A stretch of DNA of 64,000 bases from Symbiodinium natans (lineage: Eukaryota > Sar > Dinophyceae > Suessiales > Symbiodiniaceae). Positions within the stretch are counted from its first letter, which is position 1. Every line of letters starts with the position of its first letter. The notes under the pieces are model-generated. The model had not been told where the DNA came from, searched no databases, and worked only from the letters and a program-made list of their open reading frames with translations. The stretch is from positions 62,001-126,000 of the forward strand of contig CAJNDS010000060.1 of NCBI GenBank assembly GCA_905221605.1. The letters are read 5' to 3'. Both the position numbers and the translations under genes were made by a program. Shown here piece after piece: positions 2,783 through 63,796 of the stretch.

Positions 2783-3439
2783 GCAAACGCAACATTCTCT
2801 AAACCTCAGGAGGCTGAAAGCCGAAACCCGAGCCTTTCAGGATTGCCAAGACAGAGCACGTGGGCTTCGGAGTGAGTGGCGCGCGGTTCGCCAGCCCATG
2901 TGGTCGCAACGAGTGGACAGGGAGCGTCGAACTTTGGCCTTAGGATGCTTTAGGGGTTGATGGTGTATGCAAAGAAGGGGCTGAGGAGAGGATTTGGCGT
3001 TCTTTGTTGTTTTTTCGGTGGGGGAGGGGTGAGGCCAAAAGCCAGGGATTCAGCCATCGCCAAAATCACTTTACCTGCAGGAGACATGTCAGGGGCGTAC
3101 ACAACTCTACCCGGGGCACAATGGCAAGTTCTAAGTTCTGCGGGCAGTTTTAGCTGTGTCTTGGTTTTTTGGGATTTCTCCTCGCTTGTGAGGTTCGAAG
3201 TGGGCTTTCGCGGATGATCACCCTGAAAGTCCCTACGTTCGGTTTTATCGGGGCTGCTGTGGACGATTGACGGCGGAAGTTGGGGAGGGATTGCTGAAAC
3301 CCATGAGTATCAAAAACTCCGCCAGGCCTACGTTGACGTAGTGAGGGTCCACCTCCATAGCTCAAGCTTACGTGCCCAGCTACGACCTGCGACCCGGAAC
3401 TGCTGGCATGGTCATTTCTCAAATTGAAAATGAACTCAG

Positions 3440-18214: not shown

Positions 18215-19492
18215 GTCAAGTTGCTGCACGAAAATGCCATGGTAACACGATGGACGCCCTCAGCATCTTTGGCCGTGCCTCCTCCCACGCTTCAACTTCT
18301 GGTCGTTCCTCCGGAACATGCTTCCCGTATCCAAAGCGCGGAAGACCTTCTCAGTATGCTTGCGACGTATCCCTACCCCCAGAGGATCAATCAGATCAGC
18401 AGCATAGACTGGAGCGTCATTGGCCTGGACGTATCGCAGGTGCTGGCCAGAACCCTTGATGCGACAATTCAACGAAACTATCACAATCAAGTGAGCTTGC
18501 TTCTAGACAAGCGGGCCGAGGTCAATAGACAGAATGAGGTGGCACAGCCGCTTTGTGCAGCAGTAGCGCTTAATCATGTGGATACGGTGAGGGTGCTCCT
18601 AGATGCGAAAGCAAGCACGAGCTGCACGGATGAAGACGGCAGGACAGTTCTGCAGATCGCCGCTGCGGCAGGTATGAGTGCCATCGTCGGCATGCTGCTC
18701 GCGCATGGGGCCATCGTCAATAGACCGGAAGACACCGAAACTCCCCTCCATGGTGCGGCTGCTGCCGGCCACTTGCCCACGGTACATCTGCTGCTTTCTG
18801 CCCTTGCAGAAGTGAATCGGACAGGTAGAGGTGGGAGGGCAGCGCTGCACTTTGCGGCTGTATCTGGTGCCGGTGATGTTGTGGCAGCCTTAATACAGGC
18901 AAGAGCAGAGATCCATCAACAAGATCGGAACCGCAAGGAAGCCCTGCAGTACGCAGTTTCTAGCGACGAGGTTTCCTCGGTAGCCTCGTTGCTCAAAGCC
19001 GGTGCCGCCGGTGCAGAACTGAAGATCCGGGGTCGGATGCCATTGCTCCACTACGCACTGGTCGCAAGCACGGAAGAGATGGTGAAATATGTTTTGGAGC
19101 AGCGCGCAGACCTTTGCACAGTTGATCTCAAAGGTCGCGTGCCCATTTTGGTGGCCGCTGCAAGGTCGGATCCCAGCTTCGTGAAGCTGATTTGCCAGCG
19201 CGCGGTGCAGAGCAAGGAGGACATTGACCTCGCCTTGCACGTGGCAGCTGAGAAAGGCAATGCCGGAGTTGTGCAGGTCTTGCTCCAGAAGCGTGCAGAT
19301 CCTACCGCCCGAGTTGCTGAGACAACCGCTTTACATTTGGCGGCAGTCGGAGGTTACGACGTGGTCATCCGCGAGCTGCTGCACGCTAAGGCAGACTGCA
19401 GGTCCAAGGATGGCAAGTCTCGACTCCCATGGGATGTCTGCAAGAGCAGGAAGAACTTGGCTTTGGCAGAGCTGCTCAGGCCTGTGAGGTGA
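18215..19492 (+). CDS. Ankyrin-repeat protein
   Basis: One long exon encodes about 425 residues. After roughly 85 residues of non-repeat sequence containing a hydrophobic segment (TLQLLVVPP) come ten or eleven ankyrin repeats of about 33 residues, with typical cores such as TPLHGAAAAGHLPTVHLLLS, GRTVLQIAAAAGMSAIVGML and TALHLAAVGGYDVVIRELL. Several end with the RAEVN/KADC turn. Ankyrin arrays mediate protein-protein binding; no catalytic, kinase or channel domain is seen, so the partner is unknown. The first in-frame ATG is at 18239, but an upstream exon joins in phase. The apparent stop is TGA 19490-19492, yet it overlaps a perfect donor (gtgag|gtgagc), so the protein may continue in another exon. 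It is intact, without frameshifts. Confidence 0.9.
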   Translation, partial: VKLLHENAMVTRWTPSASLAVPPPTLQLLVVPPEHASRIQSAEDLLSMLATYPYPQRINQISSIDWSVIGLDVSQVLARTLDATIQRNYHNQVSLLLDKRAEVNRQNEVAQPLCAAVALNHVDTVRVLLDAKASTSCTDEDGRTVLQIAAAAGMSAIVGMLLAHGAIVNRPEDTETPLHGAAAAGHLPTVHLLLSALAEVNRTGRGGRAALHFAAVSGAGDVVAALIQARAEIHQQDRNRKEALQYAVSSDEVSSVASLLKAGAAGAELKIRGRMPLLHYALVASTEEMVKYVLEQRADLCTVDLKGRVPILVAAARSDPSFVKLICQRAVQSKEDIDLALHVAAEKGNAGVVQVLLQKRADPTARVAETTALHLAAVGGYDVVIRELLHAKADCRSKDGKSRLPWDVCKSRKNLALAELLRPVR

Positions 19493-22534: not shown

Positions 22535-23636
22535 TCGTGCCTAGAAGCATGGTCTGCCATGTTTTGAAAGGAATAGCCACGCAAGCAGCCAAGCCCCCGT
22601 GCGCAATTTGTGCTTCGGGAGGAGCGACGTCCTGTCAAGTGACTGCAGCTAATGGAGCTGTCCTGGCGATGTACTGAAGATCCCAAAATCATTCGTTGAC
22701 ACTCCCGCGCCGAACTCCAAAATCCCAAATTCTCAGTTGCCTCCAGAGCAAACCCGCGTTGCAAGGCCCGGGGCCCAAGGGCGGCGTCGCCCAGAAGAGC
22801 CCCAGGCCTTGGGGCTTCGGGGTGTGCTGCTGCACAGGCATTAGGGGACCCTGGATGGCCTGCCACCCAACTCAGTAGCAAACTGGGGAGGCTCTCCAAT
22901 GAGCAGTTGCAGCACTTGCACTCTCCGGGATTCGCCCGCCATGCCTCTGTGCTCACCTCGGAATTGCTTCTGTCGGGCTAGTCACAACTTCGAGCAGCCA
23001 TGGACATGCAGGTTTTGTGCAGCGTGGCTTCGGCAACTGGCATGTGTCTCTGTGTGTGTGTGTGTGTTTACGGTCCAGGGTGCATGAAGTCTGGGTGCCG
23101 TTAAAAGTTCCACCGGTTCTGTCAGGCAGCATGCAGATGCCTTGCTCTCCGGCCGAGGCACCAGCCCTACCTTTGCAGGAACGTCCCGTGCAGGTGGAGA
23201 CGGTTTCTTGCCGCAAGATGGCCAACTGCCGCTATGCGCTTGTTTTATCCCCCGCGGGAGTTTTCACCCGAGCTATTGGACTGAATCTCGCCTTGCTGAT
23301 GGGTAAAGTAGCACTGCTAGTAGCACGGCTACAGCATCAGCTATCATCTGGCTTTGGATATCAAATCGGTCGCCAGCCAGCAATCTCAGCAGTCCACTTC
23401 CACATGCTCTGCACTCAAAGGTGGAGGACCACCAGCTGAAAAGGATGCCCTCCGTGCCGCTGTTCCGCGAGCCCTACCTGGAACTGCGAAACATCACCCT
23501 GTCGCCAAAGCATCCTGGCAGCTACCAGTAAGGAGCTTGTGAGCTTCAGCTTTCAGCTCTGCCCTAGAGTCGGGGGTGCGCTTCCAAGCGCAGGAACGTG
23601 CCTTGAGTATTCTACCGGTAGAGCGAGAGAGAGAGA
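22535..23636. other. Ambiguous; (GT)n at about 23050-23068
   Basis: From 22656 to 22981 two plus frames and one minus frame are open at the same time, all protein-like, so no call is made. The sequence just before the heptamer array (23540-23630) has no recognisable gene. Confidence 0.4.
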
Positions 23637-25815
23637 GACAAGAGACAAGAGACAAGAGACAAGAGACAAGAGACAAGAGACAAGAGACAAGAGACAAGAG
23701 ACAAGAGACAAGAGACAAGAGACAAGAGACAAGAGACAAGAGACAAGAGACAAGAGACAAGAGACAAGAGACAAGAGACAAGAGACAAGAGACAAGAGAC
23801 AAGAGACAAGAGACAAGAGACAAGAGACAAGAGACAAGAGACAAGAGACAAGAGACAAGAGACAAGAGACAAGAGACAAGAGACAAGAGACAAGAGACAA
23901 GAGACAAGAGACAAGAGACAAGAGACAAGAGACAAGAGACAAGAGACAAGAGACAAGACAAGAGACAAGAGACAAGAGACAAGAGACAAGAGACAAGAGA
24001 CAAGAGACAAGAGACAAGAGACAAGAGACAAGAGACAAGAGACAAGAGACAAGAGACAAGAGACAAGAGACAAGAGACAAGAGACAAGAGACAAGAGACA
24101 AGAGACAAGAGACAAGAGACAAGAGACAAGAGACAAGAGACAAGAGACAAGAGACAAGAGACAAGAGACAAGAGACAAGAGACAAGAGACAAGAGACAAG
24201 AGACAAGAGACAAGAGACAAGAGACAAGAGACAAGAGACAAGAGACAAGAGACAAGAGACAAGAGACAAGAGACAAGAGACAAGAGACAAGAGACAAGAG
24301 ACAAGAGACAAGAGACAAGAGACAAGAGACAAGAGACAAGAGACAAGAGACAAGAGACACAAGAGACAAGAGACAAGAGACAAGAGACAAGAGACAAGAG
24401 ACAAGAGACAAGAGACAAGAGACAAGAGACAAGAGACAAGAGACAAGAGACAAGAGACAAGAGACAAGAGACAAGAGACAAGAGCCAAGAGACAAGAGAC
24501 AAGAGACAAGAGACAAGAGACAAGAGACAAGAGACAAGAGACAAGAGACAAGAGACAAGAGACAAGAGACAAGAGACAAGAGAGATACAAGAGACAAGAG
24601 ACAAGAGACAAGAGACAAGAGACAAGAGACAAGAGACAAGAGACAATAGACAAGAGACAAGAGACAAGAGACAAGAGACAAGAGACAAGAGACAAGAGAC
24701 AAGAGACAAGAGACAAGAGACAAGAGACAAGAGACAAGAGACAAGAGACAAGAGACAAGAGACAAGAGACAAGAGACAAGCGACAAGAGACAAGAGACAA
24801 GAGACAAGAGACAAGAGACAAGAGACAAGAGACAAGAGACAAGAGACAAGAGACAAGAAACAAGAGACAAGAGACAAGAGACAAGAGACAAGAGACAAGA
24901 GACAAGAGACAAGAGACAAGAGACAAGAGACAAGAGAAAAGAGACAAGAGACAAGAGACAAGAGACAAGAGACAAGAGACAAGAGACAAGAGACAAGAGA
25001 CAAGAGACAAGAGACAAGAGACAAGAGACAAGAGACAAGAGACAAGAGACAAGAGACAAGAGACAAGAGACAAGAGACAAGAGACAAGAGACAAGAGACA
25101 AGAGACAAGAGACAAGAGACAAGAGACAAGAGACAAGAGACAAGAGACAAGAGACAAGAGACAAGAGACAAGAGACAAGAGACAAGAGACAAGAGACAAG
25201 AGACAAGAGACAAGAGACAAGAGACAAGAGACAAGAGACAAGAGACAAGAGACAAGAGACAAGAGACAAGAGACAAGAGACAAGAGACAAGAGACAAGAG
25301 ACAAGAGACAAGAGACAAGAGACAAGAGACAAGAGACAAGAGACAAGAGACAAGAGACAAGAGACAAGAGACAAGAGACAAGAGACAAGAGACAAGAGAC
25401 AAGAGACAAGAGACAAGAGACAAGAGACAAGAGACAAGAGACAAGAGACAAGAGACAAGAGACAAGAGACAAGAGACAAGAGACAAGAGACAAGAGACAA
25501 GAGACAAGAGACAAGAGACAAGAGACAAGAGACAAGAGACAAGAGACAAGAGACAAGAGACAAGAGACAAGAGACAAGAGACAAGAGACAAGAGACAAGA
25601 GACAAGAGACAAGAGACAAGAGACAAGAGACAAGAGACAAGAGACAAGAGACAAGAGACAAGAGACAAGAGACAAGAGACAAGAGACAAGAGACAAGAGA
25701 CAAGAGACAAGAGACAAGAGACAAGAGACAAGAGACAAGAGACAAGAGACAAGAGACAAGAGACAAGAGACAAGAGACAAGAGACAAGAGACAAGAGACA
25801 AGAGACAAGAGACAG
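23637..25815. repeat. ~2.2-kb array of a 7-bp repeat (CAAGAGA)n
   Basis: About 310 copies of caagaga. Because 7 is not a multiple of 3 and the unit contains no stop in any phase, all three plus frames read the same heptapeptide (ETRDKRQ) and the minus frames read SLVSCLL, creating 357-779-codon false ORFs. Deviant units are few and clustered between about 23957 and 24940 (a two-base deletion near 23957, and at 24358, 24484, 24583, 24647, 24781, 24859, 24938). The following ~870 bp to 25810 is essentially perfect. Confidence 0.98.
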
Positions 25816-29600: not shown

Positions 29601-30272
29601 TTTTCAGCGGGCTTTGGTGGCTGAATGTGGTGTAGGGCCAAAGAGAACACCCGAAGTTCAGTGCTCACACCAACTTCCGTTTTTGCATGTACAAAAGGGT
29701 TCTTGTCCAGCTGCACAGAGCGGAGTGTTACGGATCCGCACCGAGTCTACGCCATGCAAGCTTGTTGCGAAAGAGAGTGTTCTCCTCAACAAGTTATTCT
29801 GGTTTGCAGGGCATGTAGGCATGTAGGCATGTAGGAGGACAGCAGCTAGGGCAGAAAAAAAGGGACCGATGAATTGCCAGCCCCCAGCCTTGGCCCAGGA
29901 TGGGGCAGAAGCGAAGCTCCCCGGGCAGCAGATGCTTCAATAGTCTGGATAAGGAGTGTAGGTTTGGGATGGTTTGGGGTCGAGGTTGCACTGATGATCC
30001 TGCAGGTGGAGTCAAGTGTCGGGCAGGTCACTGCAAGGGGTACATGTTCCCTTTCACTGCAGGGCGCGCATCATGGCAAGTGGCCTTGGTGTTGCGCTCG
30101 TAGCTTCCAGTCGTGTGTTTAGGCTCTTCGAGTTTTGCCGCCACGTCGAAAGCTCACATGTACCCTCATGCTAAACTAAGTCTACTGACTGGAGCAAGAG
30201 AAGGGTCAAGGCAGGGTCAATACACTGGAGAAGCTGCAGCCGCATAACTTTCTCACACATTCATCAAAGTCG

Positions 30273-30941
30273 ATGTCGCTTTACGGTCTTCAAGTGGTCG
30301 AGCATCCAAGCATGGTGGGATGGACGGCCGTGGCTGTCCTTCTCGTGCTGACTGCCGCGAATGCCGACAATGCTACAGAGGCCGCAGCACAGCCGTGGCA
30401 GGGTCCCTGTGCCCGGATCGTGAGCTGCCCTGCCTGACGCCTCAATGCACTGCCCAGCGTGAAGAAGTTTCTGAAAGAACGTAACGGAGCGGATCTTTAT
30501 CCCATGGTGGAGGTGAGCTGGCAAAGGGGGCATGATCCAGAGATGGAGGTCTACACTTGCCATGGCCGACCGCCCAGCGCGGGCGTTGAGTCGGGACTGC
30601 AGCCCTCGGCACGCATTGCACTCTCGCCTTTCAGCACGGTGGACCTACACTTCTTGTTGCAGTGCCAGGACATCCAGCCCTTGCCCGGCAGCCAGGCGCC
30701 CAAGGCTATGTCCAAGGCCGATGCCTGCGGCAGGCTTCCAGAGGTCAGCACCTGGGACTGGAATCCTGCTTTGTCTTGGGGCACTGGAATCCTGCTTTGT
30801 CTTCTTTTTGCCGTCCCGATCTTCATCCTTTGCCGCCTGGCGCAGACCACCTCCGGTCCCCTTTTGCGCCACCGCCTGGGCCCGAAGGCCAAGTTGGATG
30901 ATGAGGAGCTGGAGACCTCGGCCCCGCCAGCGCCGGTCTAG
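30273..30941 (+). CDS. Selenoprotein M-like thioredoxin-fold ER protein (in-frame TGA = Sec), with C-terminal TM helix
   Basis: Read through one in-frame TGA (30435-30437), the frame runs from ATG 30273 or, more likely, ATG 30312 to TAG 30939-30941, 209 residues from the second ATG. Residues 1-18 from 30312 form a signal peptide (MVGWTAVAVLLVLTAANA). The TGA lies in ARIVSCPA-Sec-RLNALPSV, which aligns without gaps to the redox centre of SelM (CxxU, then LN and a VKxF helix). Downstream GHDPEMEVY and RIALSPFSTVDLHFLLQ match the SelM/Sep15 core (GADPE…, RIPLSE…). This family is a thioredoxin-like redox protein of the ER lumen. Unlike typical ~145-residue SelM, this copy adds a TM helix (LLCLLFAVPIFILCRLA, about residues 161-177), basic residues (RHRLGPKAK) and an acidic tail. 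No intron is needed. A 21-bp direct repeat, offset by 26 bp, precedes the TM segment. Confidence 0.85.
30435..30437 (+). other. Predicted selenocysteine codon (TGA)
   Basis: The TGA replaces the second redox residue of a CxxC/CxxU motif. Conserved sequence continues on both sides in the same frame, which argues against a true stop or an intron. Confidence 0.8.
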
Positions 30942-30999
30942 GGAGTCTAGCTGCGAAACTTTCCGCTTTCCTGCAGCACCAACTGCGAAATTCACAGTA

Positions 31000-31934
31000 T
31001 ATTGAAGGTTCCACATTCCACAGTACATTGCCATGCCCACATGATGCAGCTTGTGAAGTGCACGAGGTTTTTGTCCCGGACTGCTGCCCTTCGGCAATGT
31101 AAACGTAGTCTACTGTAGAAGTTTGCTGTCGAGCGTTCTTTTGCGGAGCTCTCCTAGAAGCTATGGGGACAGCCGTTAGCGACAGCTGCTCCGGGAAGGC
31201 CACTCGTGAGCTGATGGCTCGCGCCCTGTAGGCGTGGCTCAGTGTCGCTGAACCTTGCAACTTTAGAAGCTGCAAGGTTGTGCACACGATCTGTGGATGT
31301 CTTCGTTAACGAAATGTCTCACGCTTGGCAGCAGCGATTGCCGCGGTGAAACCTGGAGTTGCGCAGGTTGGCGGGACGCTGTCTAGCGATGGCTTCATGG
31401 GCTTTGCCACTTCTCGTCCTAGTTGAGAGAGATATTGTTCACTGAGTTGCAGGTAAGTAGAGATGCAGGTGCATCCGAGAAACCCTTGAATCCCTGGCGG
31501 TTAAGGTCGCAACCCCCGGGAAATAGAAGCCAACATCGGGAAAAAAACCAGAGACAGCCTCAACTGTGAATGGACCTGCCATGACCTGCTGGCATTCATG
31601 TGGTGACGTAAAAGCGCTCATGGCCTATGGCTCGCTGCTGTAAGGATGGGTTCGTCTTTGCTCAGGGGCAGGCCGTCCCAGGCTAACAGGCGTTGTCAGC
31701 CCAAGACCCAGAATCCAAAGCCCACATGGCGGAGTGTTGTTTTTGATGAAGCCGCTCCATCATCTCCTGGGGTGTGTTATAAGGGGATTCGGTCTACAGG
31801 GATGTTTCTGCGTGGGGTCAGTAGCCGCAGTAGCCGCGGTAGCCCACGGTAGCCAAGGTTGGGATGACGGCCACCTTGTGGACCATCGCCGCTGACCTGG
31901 TGGGCCCTGCGGTGCGGTCGTCTTTCCTCAAGTC
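31000..31934. other. No protein gene seen; SelM 3' region
   Basis: Frames here overlap on both strands without motifs. It contains the hairpin at 31242-31287 and a second small stem (aacctg / caggtt) near 31350. Confidence 0.4.
31242..31287 (+). ncRNA. Weak SECIS-like hairpin candidate in the 3' region
   Basis: About 300 bp after the SelM stop, TGA is followed by a perfect 9-bp stem (aaccttgca / tgcaaggtt) closing an 11-base loop that contains aGAAgc. GTGT/ACAC can pair below an internal loop. This loosely resembles a SECIS (TGA, helix, AA loop), but the 3' GA of the quartet is missing and the helix is short. Other RTGA sites down to 31640 gave nothing better. Confidence 0.2.
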
Positions 31935-32324
31935 TTGTTTTTCATGGCGGTTCGGCCTTTGTCAGGGCATCCATCTAAACTTGGCAATTGTAGTTACGGT
32001 ATTCAAAACAAGTACTGGTTGGACATCAGGCAACAAACGCACCGTACCAGGGCCTGTTGCGTGCCCTCACAGGACTTGGAGTTTTATCGATTTGGGGGTC
32101 TGAGTCAGAGAGCATCAGAGAGCGACAGCGTCAAGGCCTTCCCATTCGATCCAACCACCACACGTTCCCAGTACAACCAGCGTCCATATGCAAAAGCACG
32201 TGCAAAGTTGCACCCGGAACTGCTGAAGCCATGTAAAGTCAGCGGGCACGGTTTGGACACACGCTGTGTGGACAGGTTCATGGACATAGGCTTGTGGACT
32301 TTGGGGTGCTCCGGGAATTTGTAG
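31935..32324 (+). CDS. Candidate exon, polar unknown protein
   Basis: A 129-codon frame, best between about 32100 and 32240: ASESDSVKAFPFDPTTTRSQ, then RPYAKARAKLHPELLKPC, followed by a possible donor (cat|gtaaag). Minus frames overlap but are Cys/Leu-rich. No domain is recognised. Confidence 0.4.
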   Translation: MFFMAVRPLSGHPSKLGNCSYGIQNKYWLDIRQQTHRTRACCVPSQDLEFYRFGGLSQRASESDSVKAFPFDPTTTRSQYNQRPYAKARAKLHPELLKPCKVSGHGLDTRCVDRFMDIGLWTLGCSGNL

Positions 32325-32732
32325 TAGTTCAGTGAGTTCAGTGCTCGAGGTGGCAGTTGCACCCAGTTGCAAGACTCATGTTTCTGCGTGTGGAGGTGCG
32401 CACCTTTCTTTGAGATTCTGAGTTTGCCAGTGTCCATTGTTGGAGGTCGTTTGGCGTGGGCCGCTTTGAGTCTTGTCCATAGCAAAATAATTCAGAGCTG
32501 ACGGCAGCATGTTGCAAGCTGAGTGCTCACGGACTGTCGCCGGCTGTGCACAGCATCTCCATGGGCCAAGAATGTCGTGTGCCCGTTGATTTGTAACGCA
32601 TTTTCGGAGACAGTCCCAAATTCGAAGTGTCATGCACCAGGACTCCCATCTTCTGAACAGACCAAGATTGTCAGGAAGGTGTCGCAACACAATCCTGGAA
32701 GTCCGTTTCCATGCACGACTTTTGCATGCTAG

Positions 32733-33008
32733 TTGTTTCCCGACCCCGCAGTCTGCAGTCCAGCACGCAGACTGTTGAATCCAATGCAACCCACGGAAAA
32801 CGCCCGGCTGAGTGCCCGGATGGGGCCCGACTGGTTTCTCGATTTCCGACCTGACAGCCACACAAGCATAAAGGAATCTCCCCATCCCGGGCAACGGCTC
32901 AAGACTTCGTTTCTTGCCCCCCTTTTTTTATCTTTAAGCCATCCCAAGCCTTTAGAGGGGGTATGTCGGGTATGTCAAGACTCACCCGACCCATCAGCAC
33001 ACACCTGA
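32733..33008 (+). CDS. Weak exon candidate
   Basis: Contains MQPTENARLSARMGPDWFLD and FRPDSHTSIKESPHPGQRLK, then a hydrophobic stretch. A 172-codon minus frame (32376-32894) overlaps. Supported by composition only. Confidence 0.3.
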   Translation: MFPDPAVCSPARRLLNPMQPTENARLSARMGPDWFLDFRPDSHTSIKESPHPGQRLKTSFLAPLFLSLSHPKPLEGVCRVCQDSPDPSAHT

Positions 33009-33647
33009 AACCAAGCCCTGGCGTAGATGCCAAGTTGTCCGAGCAAAGAAGATTCAGGGGCGACTTGGCGGCCTGTAGTCACGTGACCCCTGAACTGGTC
33101 CTGAACAATTCTCTGCGAGACCTTAGAACTCTGTACCAAACGTGAAATCCTTGAACAACCCTGCAAAAGCCCTTAAGCCTTAAGCCCCACAACCCTACTT
33201 GCCGAATTGAGCCGTGCCGATGCGGGGAAGTGCATGTAGCTGTGGAGGCCGGCGGCAGGGTCTTTGGATTTAGGATCTGTGGGGCACAGAAGGATTGGGA
33301 TTGGGAGCGGCTTCTATTTCAAAAGCTAGACAGTGAATAAGGCACTTCGGATGACAAAAGTATCATCCATCACCATGAGCAGCAGCCGCTGCCACCAGCA
33401 GCATCATCCTCACTGCTGTCGTCGTCCTCATCATCATCACCATTTGAGCCGGTTGAAACCAAAGGCTCAGGTAATCTACCAAGCTTCGTCACCGCCGCGC
33501 CAGTGCACCAAAACGAAAGGGCAGCATAGTTGAAGGTTTCCAGGCCACCAGCCACCCAGAACGAAAGGGGTTCAGGTTTTCGGGGGTCCTACGTTTGTGC
33601 TGCGGGATTGTGCAATGGCTTCCTAGAACGCTTGTTGCTCGCCAGTC

Positions 33648-61646: not shown

Positions 61647-62087
61647 TTGTTTGCCTGGATGCAAAGGGCAAAAGGGTTTGCCCACGATGAGCGCCTCTGG
61701 CCTGCATTCTGTGGCTGCCTGCATCTGAGGTTTAGCCCTGCAGAGCTGCGAAGCGGCTCTGCCTTTGTGAGTTGGCAATGGGAGGCATGCCGACCTAGGC
61801 CTCCAATAGTCCTCCAATCAACACCTAGCAGCTCCAAAGAGTCGTCTCCAGGGGTCCACCTTGTGCCCATGTCATGGATCCTGTCGTGGTCAACTCTTCA
61901 CTGGAAACGGGTTAACGAAAGCAAGTCTTGGGAGGGGCACTGGTGGTGCACTCGAACTTCCATGTCGGATGCATCCGTCGAATGCCAGCGGGGTGCCTCG
62001 CGCGTCTCGTGCCTTTTGCCTTTTCGTTTAGGTGGTGCCGGCGCGTTCGCATCAGTTCGCACTCGCTGCGCCGTGCACCAGCTGTAG
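61647..62087 (+). CDS. Candidate ORF, 146 aa, Trp/Ser/Cys-rich
   Basis: An open frame (the listed start codon at 61647 is TTG) with FAHDERLWPAFCGCLHLRFS, LQSTPSSSKESSPGVHLVP and ESKSWEGHWWCTRTSMSD, ending at TAG. Minus frames at 61556-61870 overlap. No domain is recognised. Confidence 0.3.
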   Translation: MFAWMQRAKGFAHDERLWPAFCGCLHLRFSPAELRSGSAFVSWQWEACRPRPPIVLQSTPSSSKESSPGVHLVPMSWILSWSTLHWKRVNESKSWEGHWWCTRTSMSDASVECQRGASRVSCLLPFRLGGAGAFASVRTRCAVHQL

Positions 62088-62899: not shown

Positions 62900-63796
62900 A
62901 TGACGTTTCGAGGCACGGCGTCGGGCCTCGCATACCCCTTCGACATCACCCAGCGCGAGCATGAATACTGGGTACAAGCTTTGAATCAACAGGACTTGGA
63001 TCGTCATCTCTGTGTGGCCACCAGCAGCCTCTTCAAGTGGATGCAGGCTGCTCGAATGGAGCTTGCATGGCTGCAGGCAGGCTATAAAAATCTGTCCTAT
63101 ATCGAACCGCAGTTGCCCCGACGCCTTTTGGTGGCCTCTCAGGGCATTAAGATGATCCGGCCGGCAGCGCTGTCCGAAGCTCTGCACAAGTCGGTCCTTA
63201 CCCGGGTGAGCATCGGAAAGGTCGGCAAGACCTCCATGGAGTTCCGCTATGAGATCTTTTTTGATGGCGACAAGGTTGCGGATGGCTGCACCGTCATGAT
63301 CTTTGCAACCGGACGATCTGGGAGCTTCACTCCAACACCTGTCCCGGATGATCTGAGAGCCTTGGCGGTGGATGGCCTTAACGCATCGCCTGCGGAGCTG
63401 TCCCGGTCAGTTTCTGATCAGATGCCACAAGTTCCCCAAGCTTTGCTCAACAGTCCTGCAAATTCTGGAAATTCTCAAAGTTTGCAACATGTGTACCGGA
63501 CGCGGGCTTTCGTGCGCTTCTCGGATGAGGACCTGAACAAGCATGCCAACCACTCGGCGCAGGCGCGGTTCTTCGAGGATGCGCAGGAAGAGTTGGCCGC
63601 TGACGCTGGGGCTCCAGATGAGCTGCGCAGACTTGCAGCTGGCCACATCGAAGCGATTGCCATCACCTACATGGCTGAGGCACATGCTCTTGACGAGCTT
63701 GAGATTTTCTTGGCCCCCAGTGCGGCTGCACATTCTCTGGATGTTTGGGTCCATCGGATGAGACCCGACCGGCGGCTGTTGGCAAAAGGACTGTGA
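62900..63796 (+). CDS. Double-hotdog acyl thioesterase-like protein
   Basis: A single 298-codon frame with two hotdog (4HBT/acyl-ACP thioesterase-like) halves. The first (about residues 12-125) contains NQQDLDRHLCVATSSLFKWM and a beta-rich end (FFDGDKVADGCTVMIFATG). The second (about 195-298) contains FVRFSDEDLNKHANHSAQAR, then FFEDAQEEL, matching the D-x-D-x-N-x-H-x-N helix of YbgC/FatA-type thioesterases, and VWVHRMRPD near the end. Such enzymes hydrolyse acyl-CoA or acyl-ACP thioesters; the substrate cannot be told here. No transit peptide is obvious. An in-frame TAG lies just before the ATG (gtaggcaATG), so either this is the true start or AG is an acceptor. The frame ends at TGA 63794; the family often has a few more residues, so a further exon is possible. 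Confidence 0.85.
   Translation: MTFRGTASGLAYPFDITQREHEYWVQALNQQDLDRHLCVATSSLFKWMQAARMELAWLQAGYKNLSYIEPQLPRRLLVASQGIKMIRPAALSEALHKSVLTRVSIGKVGKTSMEFRYEIFFDGDKVADGCTVMIFATGRSGSFTPTPVPDDLRALAVDGLNASPAELSRSVSDQMPQVPQALLNSPANSGNSQSLQHVYRTRAFVRFSDEDLNKHANHSAQARFFEDAQEELAADAGAPDELRRLAAGHIEAIAITYMAEAHALDELEIFLAPSAAAHSLDVWVHRMRPDRRLLAKGL

Follow-up and report, generated by a model that had tools for sequence, protein, structure and literature searches.

A probable SelM-type selenoprotein gene with an in-frame TGA in the dinoflagellate Symbiodinium natans

SelM selenoproteins are already known from algae and from Amoebophrya, and the gene described here is a further example. In the available part of a survey of 137 algal species, SELENOM is counted among 42 selenoprotein families (PMC7539508); the same part gives two figures, 29 and 26, for the selenoprotein genes of Symbiodinium minutum and describes SELENOM fused with pVHL or ShKT domains in other algae. 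The syndinean Amoebophrya sp. ex Karlodinium veneficum, a relative of core dinoflagellates, carries selM according to the available part of PMC6394959, where a SECIS is given for selT only. That selM resembles the present gene in having one UGA that is likely Sec, a likeness of the published description rather than of aligned sequences (PMC6394959, in part). A partial search of the literature on dinoflagellate selenoproteins and SelM returned no account of this very gene.

We analysed positions 62,001–126,000 (forward strand) of contig CAJNDS010000060.1 from the S. natans assembly GCA_905221605.1, a stretch of 64,000 nt referred to as the window. It contains what is very probably a nuclear, apparently one-exon dinoflagellate gene for a SelM-type oxidoreductase, in which the UGA at 30435–30437 is read as Sec. 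With SELENOM the gene shares the PF08806 domain, a CxxU motif in register with the SelM sequence 2a2p and a signal-like N-terminal segment, while differing from it in a predicted C-terminal transmembrane helix with a tail, and in a scored match confined to profile positions 1–46 of 75. Sep15 (SELENOF) has the same Pfam redox domain, and its 2a4h sequence matches about as weakly as 2a2p. Sep15 also has a Cys-rich N-terminal region, for which the protein encoded here has no room. Moreover, SELENOF of algae and animals has a CxU motif (PMC7539508, available part), whereas the gene here has CxxU, which makes SelM the better name. The features of the gene, in window coordinates, are as follows.

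30273–30941, forward strand: SelM-like selenoprotein coding sequence in one exon; 222 residues, of which residue 55 is TGA, with TAG as the stop.
30294–30368, forward strand: N-terminal hydrophobic segment, signal-peptide-like; residues 8–32 (Kyte-Doolittle).
30411–30554, forward strand: scored part of the Sep15/SelM redox domain; residues 47–94, profile 1–46 of 75 (PF08806).
30426–30437, forward strand: CPAU active-site motif of the CxxU type; residues 52–55, in register with CGGC of 2a2p_A.
30435–30437, forward strand: in-frame TGA, proposed Sec codon (translation, Pfam read-through, genome search).
30759–30857, forward strand: predicted C-terminal transmembrane helix; about residues 163–195, followed by a polar tail (Kyte-Doolittle).
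30942–32000, forward strand: 3′ flank and expected SECIS region, none recognised (Rfam and six kinds of custom scan).

Translation of 30273–30941 confirmed that a SelM-like gene with an in-frame TGA is present. As the preliminary description had stated, the frame is broken by a single stop, the TGA at 30435–30437, and runs for 222 codons to the TAG at 30939–30941. Upstream of the gene, a TGA in the same frame lies at 30186–30188, and in a whole-genome profile search the open frame enclosing the Sep15_SelM match measured 250 aa. In simulations that kept the dinucleotide composition of the locality and considered a single frame at a single place, no more than one stop fell within 222 codons in 13 of 4,000 sequences, and the 167 codons beyond the TGA were free of stops in 14 of 4,000. 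Frame length by itself is therefore modest evidence, being uncommon rather than striking. The GC content at the third codon position is 0.65 upstream of the TGA and 0.73 downstream, compared with 0.51–0.56 in three flanks, each read in an arbitrary frame, and the composition on either side of the TGA is of the coding type. These properties count against one alternative, which we consider improbable, namely a decayed SelM pseudogene in which a Cys codon has mutated to TGA and translation terminates after residue 54: all 167 codons beyond the TGA remain open and retain a coding-type composition. Standard gene annotation would probably break up a selenoprotein gene of this kind or leave it out.

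The decisive evidence for a putative SelM gene is homology across the TGA. The read-through translation matched Pfam Sep15_SelM (PF08806) over residues 47–94 with an E value of 2.4e-10 and 40.7 bits, above the curated cut-off of 26, and the whole-genome search returned the same locus at contig positions 92411–92554 with 36.8 bits. The part after the TGA alone scored 26.6 bits and the part before it gave no Sep15_SelM match in Pfam, so the unbroken read-through match runs through the TGA itself. This continuity again argues against the pseudogene, as does the fact that its sole defect would be a TGA at the one Sec place of the family. A PDB sequence search with matches accepted up to E 1 returned only two distinct sequences, those of the family's two structures, both weakly: SelM 2a2p (E 0.67 with the whole protein, 0.19 with the domain) and Sep15 2a4h (0.4 and 0.21, respectively). 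Both alignments place the TGA residue, entered as C, opposite the template motif's second Cys, and the spacing of CPAU equals that of CGGC in 2a2p, in an alignment that is in register though weak. Both the assignment to the Sep15/SelM family and the placing of the TGA where SelM carries Sec, made in the preliminary description from the letters alone, are thus upheld, and its naming of the gene as SelM is supported by these sequence comparisons. Its further claim of SelM/Sep15-like sequence downstream of the TGA holds for the part scored to residue 94; the match ends at profile position 46 of 75, so that RIALSPFSTVDLHFLLQ, cited as part of that sequence, lies outside it. In the encoded protein, Cys52 and Sec55 would form a redox pair acting in thiol-disulfide exchange.

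The course of the domain match also bears on whether the TGA could be intronic and removed by splicing. Dinoflagellate splice donors may be GT, GC or GA, and with such permissive donors the tested stretch formally allows 73 in-frame excisions, each 30 nt or longer. The 12 listed of these 73, however, would delete the CPAU motif together with part of the domain that Pfam aligns unbroken, and we regard splicing as very improbable.

Hydropathy bears out the signal-peptide-like start previously proposed upstream of the TGA: within residues 8–32, Kyte-Doolittle windows of 19 residues exceeding 1.4 begin at residues 8 and 11–14. An alternative start, ATG 30312 (Met14), may replace Met1. A second hydrophobic segment, at residues 163–195, is absent from the preliminary description; it is stronger than the N-terminal one, reaching a Kyte-Doolittle maximum of 2.54. 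The single-sequence structure model was too poor for use (mean pLDDT 46), also with regard to the thioredoxin-like fold expected of SelM, apart from the C-terminal helix, in which two ten-residue blocks had pLDDT values of 87 and 85. The putative signal peptide would bring the SelM-like protein into the ER and the predicted C-terminal membrane helix would retain it there. Animal SelM is a soluble ER protein, so a C-terminal anchor would set this SelM apart. The word 'transmembrane' is absent from the main text of PMC7539508.

The genome that contains the window (759,417,921 bases in 2,543 contigs) was searched for signs of Sec decoding. It is a dinoflagellate genome by its spliced leader, of which exact copies numbered 205 genome-wide (104 forward, 101 reverse; none for the reversed control), and within the 64-kb window the leader was not found with up to three mismatches allowed. 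The tRNA-Sec model gave five genome matches, all five of those listed lying above the gathering score. Because the same model also matched 14 of 14 control genomes, exceeding the cut-off in 5, the five were examined further with ARAGORN, with alignments and with Rfam. They lie at the following positions.

L003, 1501–1588: tRNA-Sec locus (tRNA-Sec model).
L004–L007, around 1501–1586: tRNA-Sec loci (tRNA-Sec model).

Two kinds of tRNA-Sec are present, a divergent one (L003, 76.3 bits) and four that are nearly identical (L004–L007, 62.8–63.3 bits), each of the latter with a tRNA-Ser(AGA) nearby. The anticodon loop is CUUCAAA in L003 and CUUCAGU in L004–L006, as read from the alignments, and in L007, as read from the DNA; the anticodon is therefore UCA (TCA in DNA) in all five. 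ARAGORN called a tRNA-Sec for two of the five (L003 and L007) and no gene at the other three places. SepSecS gave no genome match in an exon-by-exon search, which is insensitive in an intron-rich genome, and its absence is accordingly weak evidence.

Other genes of this genome have TGA codons of the Sec type. The selenophosphate synthetase (SPS) at L022:1315–2598, on the reverse strand, contains a single in-frame TGA, which lies within KGUGCKV, presumably at the Sec position of Sec-type SPS. Separately, a second selD match (L023, 194.2 bits) contains an internal TAG. SelO matched with 248.7 bits over profile positions 9–463 of 466, nearly whole in one open frame (L016), and ends at 3040–3063 with MSU-SS-stop, the TGA being in frame at what we take to be the C-terminal Sec place of SelO; it is likely to be another selenoprotein gene. 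An Rdx-family exon at L008:1501–1779 is SelW-like (41.1 bits) and carries CGGU with TGA at the U, and its upstream part seems to be split by an intron. GPX gave one genome match, to profile positions 54–81 only and without a stop, and none of the four AhpC/PRX matches contains an internal stop. The search for SelK, with no genome match, was uninformative, as nothing matched in the controls either. Taken together, the tRNA-Sec genes and the TGA codons at the presumed Sec sites of SPS and SelO indicate that the host decodes Sec.

These data weigh on two of the alternatives. Against a pseudogene stands the presence, in the same genome, of further genes with Sec-type TGA codons, for SPS, SelO and a SelW-like protein. 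Genome-wide reassignment of UGA to another residue, such as Trp, in place of Sec here, has a precedent in that all three stop codons are reassigned in Amoebophrya sp. ex Karlodinium veneficum (PMC6394959, available part). The S. natans genome, however, has a tRNA-Sec with a TCA anticodon. The TGA codons of SPS and SelO also sit at what we take to be Sec sites, and domain-containing frames of 423 aa and 298 aa in the window lack TGA, a weak argument since these frames were listed under a code in which TGA is a stop. We judge reassignment extremely improbable. From the domain match across the TGA, the CxxC register, the tRNA-Sec genes and the Sec-type TGAs of SPS, SelO and the SelW-like exon, the TGA at 30435–30437 most likely specifies Sec. 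The ribosome would decode this UGA as selenocysteine, aided by a SECIS on the 3′ side and by the factors that bind it.

No SECIS was recognised in the 3′ flank, a point in favour of the pseudogene. Rfam SECIS models gave nothing at the gathering threshold in the whole window or at permissive thresholds for the SelM gene, nor did they recognise an element for L008 or the SelO 3′ flank. None of the six kinds of custom scan rose above background. The strictest found no TGA-core candidate in 30273–33200, against one or more in 16 of the 17 background stretches, each 3 kb long. In energy-based scans of the SelM flank, shuffled sequences attained equal energies; one of the shuffle-compared scanners recovered a synthetic consensus SECIS. 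The best SelM scores in a scoring scan were 10 and 13 with a TGA core and 16 with a GGA core, and 16 was attained by 14 of 72 (TGA core) and 18 of 72 (GGA core) background stretches of 1.4 kb. Another scan returned a candidate in 60 of 72 background stretches and so lacks discrimination; for SPS it gave no TGA-core candidate, for SelW five, and it missed the hairpin near SelO. That hairpin (L016:3117–3181), about 54 nt past the stop, is a weak SECIS candidate with a score of 19 (attained by 4 of 72 background stretches) and a z of -1.09, and the SelW candidate at L008:2166–2205 is compact (z -1.01). Two hairpins in the SelM flank are not claimed as SECIS elements, one at 31242–31287 (z -1.23), which lacks a G.A tandem, and one with a GGA core at 31800–31867 (z -2.21).

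Since the scans gave no clear SPS or SelO element either, the missing SECIS weighs little against the SelM gene. Tentatively, and with more doubt than confidence, we suggest that the product is a SelM anchored by its C-terminal helix in the membrane of the ER or another secretory compartment, and that its UGA is recoded by an unusually shaped SECIS that standard models miss. The SelM gene, SPS, SelO, the SelW-like exon and the tRNA-Sec genes offer a starting set for defining the dinoflagellate SECIS.

The SelM gene appears to stand alone in the searches made. Sep15_SelM yielded one match in the genome from four scored candidates, and a SelM protein query one from eight. No Cys-containing SelM copy was seen in the genome searches, from which introns could hide one; a second copy that would show another codon at residue 55 was not found, a point in favour of the pseudogene. 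Within the window, the best candidate for a further SelM copy had an E value of 0.64. In a search for relatives, stretches fitting a pattern numbered 16 in viral contigs and 121 in prokaryote contigs, none of them confirmed. The gene that we read as a SelM selenoprotein adds one more selenoprotein in algae important for coral reefs.

Elsewhere in the window, positions 23634–25814 hold an AGAGACA tandem array of 312 copies with 98% matches; on both strands several reading frames run through it without a stop, which makes it a source of long spurious ORFs. An ankyrin-repeat ORF of 423 aa (Ank_2, E 2.8e-50) occupies 18221–19492 in one open frame. At 62900–63796, a thioesterase-like ORF of 298 aa, likewise in one open frame, matches 4HBT at residues 44–125 and 4HBT_2 at residues 205–273, and so perhaps comprises two hotdog domains.
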